Shown here piece by piece: positions 1,050-55,593 of a DNA stretch of 64,000 nt (position 1 is the first letter of the stretch; each line of letters starts with the position of its first letter). Where the stretch lies: positions 1-64,000 of the forward strand of contig JADIMJ010000065.1 of NCBI GenBank assembly GCA_017694835.1. The letters run 5' to 3'. The notes beneath the pieces were generated by a model. The model was not told where the DNA came from. It searched no databases and was given only the letters and a program-made list of their open reading frames with translations. Source of the DNA: Candidatus Cryptobacteroides gallistercoris (lineage in GTDB: Bacteria; Bacteroidota; Bacteroidia; Bacteroidales; UBA932). Made by a program: the position numbers and the translations under genes.

Positions 1050-1095
1050 CATCGCGCCCGTTGGAGTCACTTTGCTCTATCCGACGGGCGCGATG
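1050..1095 (+). repeat. REP-like palindrome, copy A
   Basis: catcgcgcccgttgga-gtcactttgctcta-tccgacgggcgcgatg; 16-bp stem with one G:T pair. Confidence 0.8.
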
Positions 1096-15630: not shown

Positions 15631-15891
15631 ATGGCAGTCATTCAGATTACATCAAGAGAATTCAGGGAAAAGCAGGCATCTATGTTTGCTCTCGCAGACA
15701 AAGGGGAACTGGTGGTAATCAGGCGCAGGGGGAAGGTCTCCTATATGCTGACCCCTGTTTACGAAGAGGATTTTGTCCTTTCACCGGAACTTGAGAAGAG
15801 GCTCGAAGAGGGTCGCAGACAATACAGAGAGGGCAATGTCACAACCTGCACGACAAAGGAGGAACTTAATAAATTCTTGGAATCGCTATGA
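15631..15891 (+). CDS. Type II antitoxin, Phd/YefM family
   Basis: MAVIQITSREFREKQASMFALADKGELVVIRRRGKVSYML; 86 aa, overlaps the toxin start by 4 bp. Confidence 0.88.
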   Translation: MAVIQITSREFREKQASMFALADKGELVVIRRRGKVSYMLTPVYEEDFVLSPELEKRLEEGRRQYREGNVTTCTTKEELNKFLESL

Positions 15892-16166
15892 GTCTGTATA
15901 AAATAGAATTTACCCAAATAGCGATAAAGACTGTATCAAAATACAAGAAATCCAATCCCGTGCAATACAAGAAGCTCGTCAAGCTGCTTAATGAGTTGAT
16001 GGAGCATCCGAGGACAGGGACGGGACACCCGGAACCTCTTAAATCAGGCAATTCGATAACATATTGCAGAAGAATATCAAAAAACGACCGCCTGATTTAT
16101 GATATATATGAGGAGAAAGTCACCGTGTTGGTCCTGACCATAGAGGGGCATTACGACGACAAATGA
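15888..16166 (+). CDS. Type II toxin, Txe/YoeB (RelE superfamily)
   Basis: YKIEFTQIAIKTVSKYKKSNP...GTGHPEPLKSGNSITYCRRISKNDRLIYDIYE...GHYDDK is YoeB-like. Confidence 0.9.
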   Translation: MSLYKIEFTQIAIKTVSKYKKSNPVQYKKLVKLLNELMEHPRTGTGHPEPLKSGNSITYCRRISKNDRLIYDIYEEKVTVLVLTIEGHYDDK

Positions 16167-16240
16167 CTGATGCTATGGGCGGAACTAATCGAAAGCGGCA
16201 AATGATATGTCAAGACAAAGACAGCGGAACAGGCAATCAC

Positions 16241-16387
16241 CGCGGCCGGTGGACACCCGTTTGCCCCTCCACCGGGCGCGTTTTTGCGGAGTTTTCGCGC
16301 CCGTCGGTATTTTCAAAATGCCATCGGCCACACTTTTGCGGGAAAATCACGGCCGTCGGAGGCTCTTTTTACTGTCCAACGGGCGCG
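16241..16387 (+). repeat. Composite REP-like element, copy C (three palindromic modules, 147 bp)
   Basis: Modules at 16241..16280, about 16301..16327 and 16348..16387; aligns without gaps to 55302..55448. Confidence 0.85.
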
Positions 16388-16509
16388 CCAAGAAATCAAG
16401 ACGAATTTTCCTTTTATGCCATAAAATGCTCCTGACGCAGGCTTAAGCCAAGAACAGACCGGAACGGCAGCACAGCTGTGCCAGAGCGACATAACACGCT
16501 GATATATAC

Positions 16510-16536
16510 AAAAATAGCCCCACCGAAGTGAGGCTA
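16510..16536 (-). terminator. Terminator of tRNA-Gly
   Basis: On minus: tagcctcac-ttcg-gtggggcta followed by TTTTT. Confidence 0.75.
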
Positions 16537-16543
16537 AAAGCAG

Positions 16544-16616
<73 letters not shown>

Positions 16617-45344: not shown

Positions 45345-45384
45345 CGCGGCCGGTGGAAGCCATTTTGCATATCCACCGGCCGCG
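45345..45384 (+). repeat. REP-like palindrome, copy E (perfect 13-bp stem)
   Basis: cgcggccggtgga-agccattttgcata-tccaccggccgcg. Confidence 0.88.
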
Positions 45385-55301: not shown

Positions 55302-55448
55302 CGCGGCCGTTGGGAGGCATTTTTGCTGTCCAACGGCCGCGGTTTTGCGGGGTTTTCGCGCCCGTCGGCATTTTGAAAATGCCAACGGCCACACTTTCGC
55401 GGGAAAATCGCGGCCGTCGGACACTGTTTTATATATCCACCGGCCGCG
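55302..55448 (+). repeat. Composite REP-like element, copy F (three palindromic modules, 147 bp)
   Basis: Modules at 55302..55341, 55362..55388 and 55409..55448; ungapped alignment to 16241..16387. Confidence 0.87.
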
Positions 55449-55505
55449 GCCACAAAAAGAGGTGCAAGAAATTGATTTTTAATTTCTTACACCTCTTGTC
55501 CTTTG

Positions 55506-55593
55506 CGGTGAGAGGGGGATTCGAACCCCCGGTACGGTAATCCCGTACGGCAGTTTAGCAAACTGCTGGTTTAAGCCACTCACCCATCTCACC
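55506..55593 (-). tRNA. tRNA-Ser (GCT)
   Basis: GGTGAGATGGGTGAGTGGCTTAAACCAGCAGTTTGCTAAACTGCCGTACGGGATTACCGTACCGGGGGTTCGAATCCCCCTCTCACCG, long variable arm, anticodon GCT. Confidence 0.95.

Follow-up and report, generated by a model that had tools for sequence, protein, structure and literature searches.

A dispersed 147-bp composite of three REP-like palindromes in Candidatus Cryptobacteroides gallistercoris and its relatives, probably mobilised by a RAYT-like transposase

Results

Two copies of the composite lie beside tRNA genes

The window, meaning the whole 64,000-nucleotide stretch of DNA that was analysed, belongs to a MAG of Candidatus Cryptobacteroides gallistercoris (G000; 2.02 Mb, 130 contigs, 89% complete). 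It holds two copies of a 147-bp composite, each with a gene on the plus strand to one side and a tRNA on the minus strand to the other, together with single 40-bp REPs of the same family.

1053..1092, no strand: single 40-bp REP of the composite's family, missing from the corresponding position of sister locus L091
15410..15449, no strand: single 40-bp REP of the composite's family
16241..16387, no strand: 147-bp composite, copy 1, three REP-like palindromes forming an inverted repeat about the core
16241..16280, no strand: REP1, the 40-bp outer palindrome of copy 1, with arms of 13 bp and a tip of 14 bp
16297..16331, no strand: core palindrome of copy 1, in which mismatches are conserved, with a conserved 16-bp linker on each side
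16348..16387, no strand: REP3, the other outer palindrome of copy 1, in the opposite orientation to REP1
16515..16536, minus strand: intrinsic terminator of tRNA-Gly (z -4.6), between the tRNA and copy 1
16543..16616, minus strand: tRNA-Gly (GCC), neighbour only
45345..45384, no strand: single 40-bp REP of the composite's family
55302..55448, no strand: 147-bp composite, copy 2, with an orthologous copy in BRZ_SA bin115 (L073:1627-1773)
55457..55497, minus strand: intrinsic terminator of tRNA-Ser (z -8.5), between the tRNA and copy 2
55505..55593, minus strand: tRNA-Ser (GCT), neighbour only

The two copies (16241-16387 and 55302-55448) align without gaps over 147 bp with 118 identities, exactly as an earlier sequence-only reading had counted by hand. 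Its figure of about 73/80 proved exact as well, the best 80-column stretch (columns 42-121) containing 73 identities, and the core stretch that it quoted is identical at 69 of 75 positions. The proposed layout of two outer REP-like hairpins around a conserved core was borne out, with many more copies in the genome. BLAST against the same genome returned 51 matches, of which over 20 reach E <= 1e-13. This excludes chance and confirms that the element is a real unit, not random clustering. Just before copy 1, two small overlapping plus-strand ORFs (15631-16166) resemble, by eye, a toxin-antitoxin pair of the YefM/YoeB or RelBE type. A 90-aa ORF running through the element (16163-16435) failed the codon-score filter of gene calling and was rejected as a gene.

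Copy 1 lies 3′ of tRNA-Gly as described, about 155 bp away, with the intrinsic terminator in between. The further suggestion of a discrete small RNA or tRNA trailer was not supported: terminators intervene at both window copies, most copies are not adjacent to a tRNA, and an Rfam search of the window returned tRNAs only, with no family matching the composite. No promoter-like site was found near copy 1. Moreover, the element is missing at orthologous tRNA-Gly loci of relatives. The tRNA-Gly 3′ region of G143 is homologous up to approximately the edge of the composite and lacks it, while the sequence 3′ of the orthologous tRNA-Gly differs in G270 and G307 and is also without a composite. Since terminators precede the element and the tRNA-Gly sites of relatives lack it, the tRNA link is incidental and the composite is most probably no part of a tRNA or small RNA gene. 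As residents of convergent gene-tRNA intervals, the window copies need no role in tRNA processing. At several other loci in G000, G270 and G307 a composite lies within ~175 bp 3′ of a tRNA, and in the raw tally the 3′ side is commoner than the 5′ side.

The composite is an inverted repeat whose hairpin tips invert in place

Sixty-five full-length copies (63 distinct) were collected from four genomes with oriented profiles. Fifty-two are 147 bp long, 11 are 146 bp, one is 149 bp and one is 168 bp. The composite divides into REP1 (columns 1-40), linker 1 (41-56), core palindrome (57-91), linker 2 (92-107) and REP3 (108-147), with palindrome centres spaced 53.5 bp. REP3 repeats REP1 in inverted orientation on the other side of the core, which makes the composite as a whole an inverted repeat. 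This alternating orientation, with linkers conserved at 82% and 91%, is that of a BIME. Within the linkers, conservation is strong at the T/A runs. Arms and core reach ~88-93% conservation and outer tips 60-67%. The centre had been described as better conserved than the flanking loops; across 50 distinct copies this stands (60% and 67% in the outer loops, versus 91% in the core arms). The outer stems, at 88-93%, equal the core. Neither hairpin foot carries an invariant tetranucleotide such as GT[AG]G; the nearest motif is NYGG within the stem, read as GTGG in only part of the copies. We therefore file the composite as atypical and not as a canonical GTAG REP. One copy (L086:1310-1475) has ~20 extra G-rich bp in the REP1 tip.

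In about one third of copies the similarity continues for 14-30 bp past the 147-bp limits, with GGTCATTCTGAAG on the left and GAAATCAACATGGATTTTCCGTTGATG on the right, which suggests that the mobile or dispersed unit may be larger in a subfamily.

The drawn stems pair in 91% of cells over 50 copies, compared with 37-50% when the stems are slid, and two-sided stem changes are more numerous than in shuffles. As a sign of RNA structure this excess is confounded. In 15 of the 50 copies the REP1 tip (columns 14-27, window 16254-16267) is inverted in place, and in 6 of the 50 the REP3 tip is (columns 121-134, window 16361-16374), a model with tip inversion gaining 152 and 81 log units, respectively, against null maxima of 13 and 4. 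Inversion of a whole hairpin yields two-sided changes by itself, and such changes are therefore not readable as RNA covariation. Furthermore, core pair 60/88 (window 16300, 16328) stays mismatched, as C.C in 33 and G.G in 9 of 50 copies (Fisher p = 1.4e-4). Small inversions tied to hairpins are known in chloroplast genomes (for example PMC6005162).

Composites are dispersed between genes in a few related genomes

Further composites were found both in the window's own genome and in relatives. Counted by hand as covariance-model places of at least ~100 bits with strands merged, which gives minimum figures, near-full-length composites number at least 21 in G000, at least 43 and at least 33 in the sister species G270 and G307, and at least one in a third such species, G143. 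Among 400 genomes of the genus, BLAST found matches in nine only, mostly weak, with few or none outside the main carriers. A pattern scan of named genomes was positive for three uncultured Bacteroidales MAGs, BRZ_SA bin115 and SI.B16 bin204, which we take to be G270 and G307, and E20 bin140, which is possibly G143. The composite was not matched in phage, plasmid and viral contig collections.

None of the composites falls within a called gene, and the many extragenic copies are accompanied by single REPs, as is typical of REP/BIME families. Among 49 copies whose interval could be classified, 19 lie between convergent genes, compared with 21% expected from intergenic length, and 30 in tandem or divergent intervals; these classes rest on crude gene calls and some of the 49 loci are orthologous. 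In G000, six of the 21 composites counted lie no more than 500 bp from a contig end, where 1.4 would be expected. On contig C76 of this genome (L018:733-4344), a ~3.3 kb segment lies between two direct composites. The segment is absent from BRZ_SA bin115 (L064), where one composite is found, suggesting composite-to-composite recombination.

Orthologous sites are found in different states

The interval between the SAM-synthetase and 5S rRNA genes carries a single REP in G000 (L135), a composite in G143 (L140), two composites in G270 (L136) and a composite-RAYT-composite arrangement in G307 (L101). These four states reveal that both composite and RAYT change state at one site. The G143 composite has the same outer junctions as the G000 single REP, and arm-to-arm deletion (147 to 40 bp) would be the simplest link between them. 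At the L024 site, G143 has a terminator and the next gene with the element absent. No site was found that is cleanly empty and shows a diagnostic junction or a target duplication.

A RAYT-like transposase gene is flanked by composites

A gene for a Y1 protein of 289-311 aa lies between composites on both sides in G307 (L101) and BRZ_SA bin115 (L100). In both, 7 bp separate the stop codon from the downstream composite (TGA AGTTACC and TGA AATGACC), and the upstream composite lies ~220 bp (L101) or ~375 bp (L100) before the start codon. The ~1.3 kb RAYT block is homologous between L100 and L101 and the outer flanks are not, placing it at two different chromosomal sites. At each locus the two flanking composites have the same orientation, not the inverted one of classical RAYT flanks, although any single composite is already close to a palindrome. 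In L101, part of the RAYT 3′ end is found again next to a composite.

The protein scored 30.6 bits with Pfam Y1_Tnp (cut-off 23). With NCBIfam REP_Tyr_transpos it scored 34.2 bits (E 2.1e-8), under the equivalog cut-off of 80, as for a divergent relative. N50 H51 x H53 and Y110 are invariant in 16 relatives, and the protein is C-terminally extended. Searching PDB with its sequence and profile gave nothing meaningful. RAYT relatives occur in 344 of 400 genomes of the genus. The cognate RAYT (~90-100% identical) was found in G270 and G307 only, the two genomes with the most composites among the matches listed. It was not found in G143, and Pfam family and protein searches found no RAYT in the 89% complete MAG G000. 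Since G000 contigs break at composites and the genome is incomplete, a composite-flanked RAYT could easily be lost in assembly; alternatively, the composite family may be a relic there.

Related RAYTs are accompanied by unrelated hairpins at similar spacing

Repeats were present within 450 bp downstream of 9 of 25 RAYT relatives, compared with 9 of 289 other genes. Tandem hairpin arrays lie beside RAYT relatives in other species of the genus (loci L141-L151, L104-L108 and L060), with a period of 52 bp in G197, G364, G245, G341 and G016 and of 51 bp in G112, and reach ~19 units (L148). Hairpin sequence and length differ between species, the linker T run is not present in all arrays, and the hairpins are also dispersed genome-wide. 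When eight repeat types were searched as a joined query, each had its best match in its home genome, where copies are dispersed (147 matches in G341). The types from G197 and G341 are similar.

Discussion

Taken together, the data establish a dispersed intergenic family that is confined to a few related species, varies in presence at orthologous sites and is linked to a RAYT-like gene, with a repeat type matched to each RAYT genome. We consider it very likely (probability about 0.85) that the composite is a non-autonomous element of the REP/BIME type, REPIN-like, and mobilised in trans by a RAYT-like HUH/Y1 transposase. Work on TnpA_REP of E. coli, S. maltophilia and Marinomonas (PMC8266576) provides the basis for the hairpin recognition and cleavage proposed here, along with RAYT genomics (PMC2817692, PMC3116915, PMC6006769). 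By analogy, the transposase would recognise folded hairpins in single-stranded DNA, cleavage and joining by its Tyr would occur near the hairpin foot, and the 147-bp unit would be copied in trans to new intergenic sites. Recombination between arms would later trim composites to single 40-bp REPs and could also flip hairpin tips. The E. coli TnpA_REP does recognise folded hairpins in single-stranded DNA.

A different account, to which we give little credence, would make the composite a bidirectional terminator or mRNA 3′-end stabiliser maintained by the host between convergent genes. A T run follows each outer hairpin, reading inward, the linker T/A runs are strongly conserved, and REP1 contains one terminator-like site. 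The excess of copies in convergent intervals (19/49) and the position of both window copies, each with a plus-strand gene on one side and a minus-strand tRNA on the other, also fit. However, both tRNAs already have strong terminators, the remaining 30 of 49 copies occupy tandem or divergent intervals, sites are empty or reduced in close relatives, and the T run is missing from some linkers of related RAYT arrays. Linkage to the RAYT would also be left unexplained. By analogy with E. coli REPs, termination may instead be a secondary effect of the composites.

Still less probable is that the composite is a MITE derived from some ordinary DDE insertion sequence, or else a repeat spread passively by recombination, and that a RAYT merely inserted beside copies of it. 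Inverted ends, the flanking DNA common to some copies and the failure to find a RAYT in G000 would suit such an origin. Nevertheless, target duplication was not seen in the flank lists, the RAYT cassette is bracketed by composites at two sites, the 7-bp spacing being the same at each, and related RAYTs display the same pattern with unrelated hairpins.

A structured small RNA or tRNA trailer, for which the position 3′ of tRNA-Gly and tRNA-Ser, the 91% stem pairing in 50 copies and the excess of two-sided changes over shuffles might speak, is highly improbable given the intervening terminators, the lack of an Rfam match or nearby promoter-like site, the absence of the element at orthologous tRNA-Gly loci, the inverted tips (15/50 and 6/50 copies) and the core pair that stays mismatched. 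For annotation, a supposed tRNA-linked small RNA is thereby removed.

REP dispersal by domesticated Y1 transposases has been best studied in Gammaproteobacteria. The RAYT-mobilised element proposed here resembles the REPs, BIMEs and RAYT (TnpA_REP) of the REPtron described by Nunvar et al. 2010 (PMC2817692) in its short inverted palindromes, conserved spacers, intergenic location and limitation to certain species, in the flanking of a Y1 HUH transposase gene, in a copy number that is highest in the genomes with the cognate RAYT, and in the RAYT 3′-end stretch beside a composite in L101, as described for BIMEs. It differs from them in having three hairpins in a fixed 147-bp unit and no invariant GT[AG]G foot, and its RAYT differs in the same orientation of the flanks (classically inverted) and in a length of ~290 aa with a C-terminal extension. 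In layout the composite comes close to the REPIN, a REP doublet dispersed as a unit of two inverted REPs (Bertels and Rainey 2011, PMC3116915), but its spacer holds a third conserved palindrome and the unit measures 147 bp. Subclass 2.6 of TnpA_Y1 (Quentin et al. 2018, PMC6006769) shares the Bacteroidetes host, NH[LIV]H, the lack of GT[AG]G, and atypical hairpins beside the gene with copies elsewhere. Its median length is 179 aa with YIH[QN]NP, whereas the protein here has ~289 aa with YVLRNP and fits no row of Table 1 in that study, which gives no REPs for its long subclasses that have C-terminal domains, 2.1 and 2.3 (PMC6006769). The new details are thus the missing invariant GT[AG]G foot, the C-terminally extended RAYT, the tips inverted in place, and the sister-RAYT arrays of unrelated hairpins at a 51-52 bp period.

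At one locus, sister species carry a single REP, one composite, two composites, or composites with a RAYT between them, which bears on how REP multimers arise, and this large genus offers many transposase-hairpin pairs of different sequences with one spacing. Together, these allow a direct test of what spacing and multimers contribute to REP copying. We tentatively propose, though we judge it somewhat improbable as a whole, a distinct RAYT-REP lineage in which a C-terminally extended Y1 transposase has as substrates hairpins set a constant five or so helical turns apart, at 52 bp in the arrays of five species, 51 bp in a sixth and 53.5 bp in the window's fixed trimer. What is conserved for recognition would then be the spacing and not the sequence or length of the hairpins, and the enzyme would act on phased multimers and not on single REPs. 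The periods of 51-52, 63 and 115 bp are all near whole helical turns, a correlation and not a shown constraint. The 63-bp period belongs to a second RAYT-like gene of G307 (L099:1372-2271), 54% identical to the first, which has its own, different hairpin repeats upstream. The 115-bp period is that of a tandem array in the window's own genome (L034:2139-2535), related to the L099 hairpins and representing a second REP family there.
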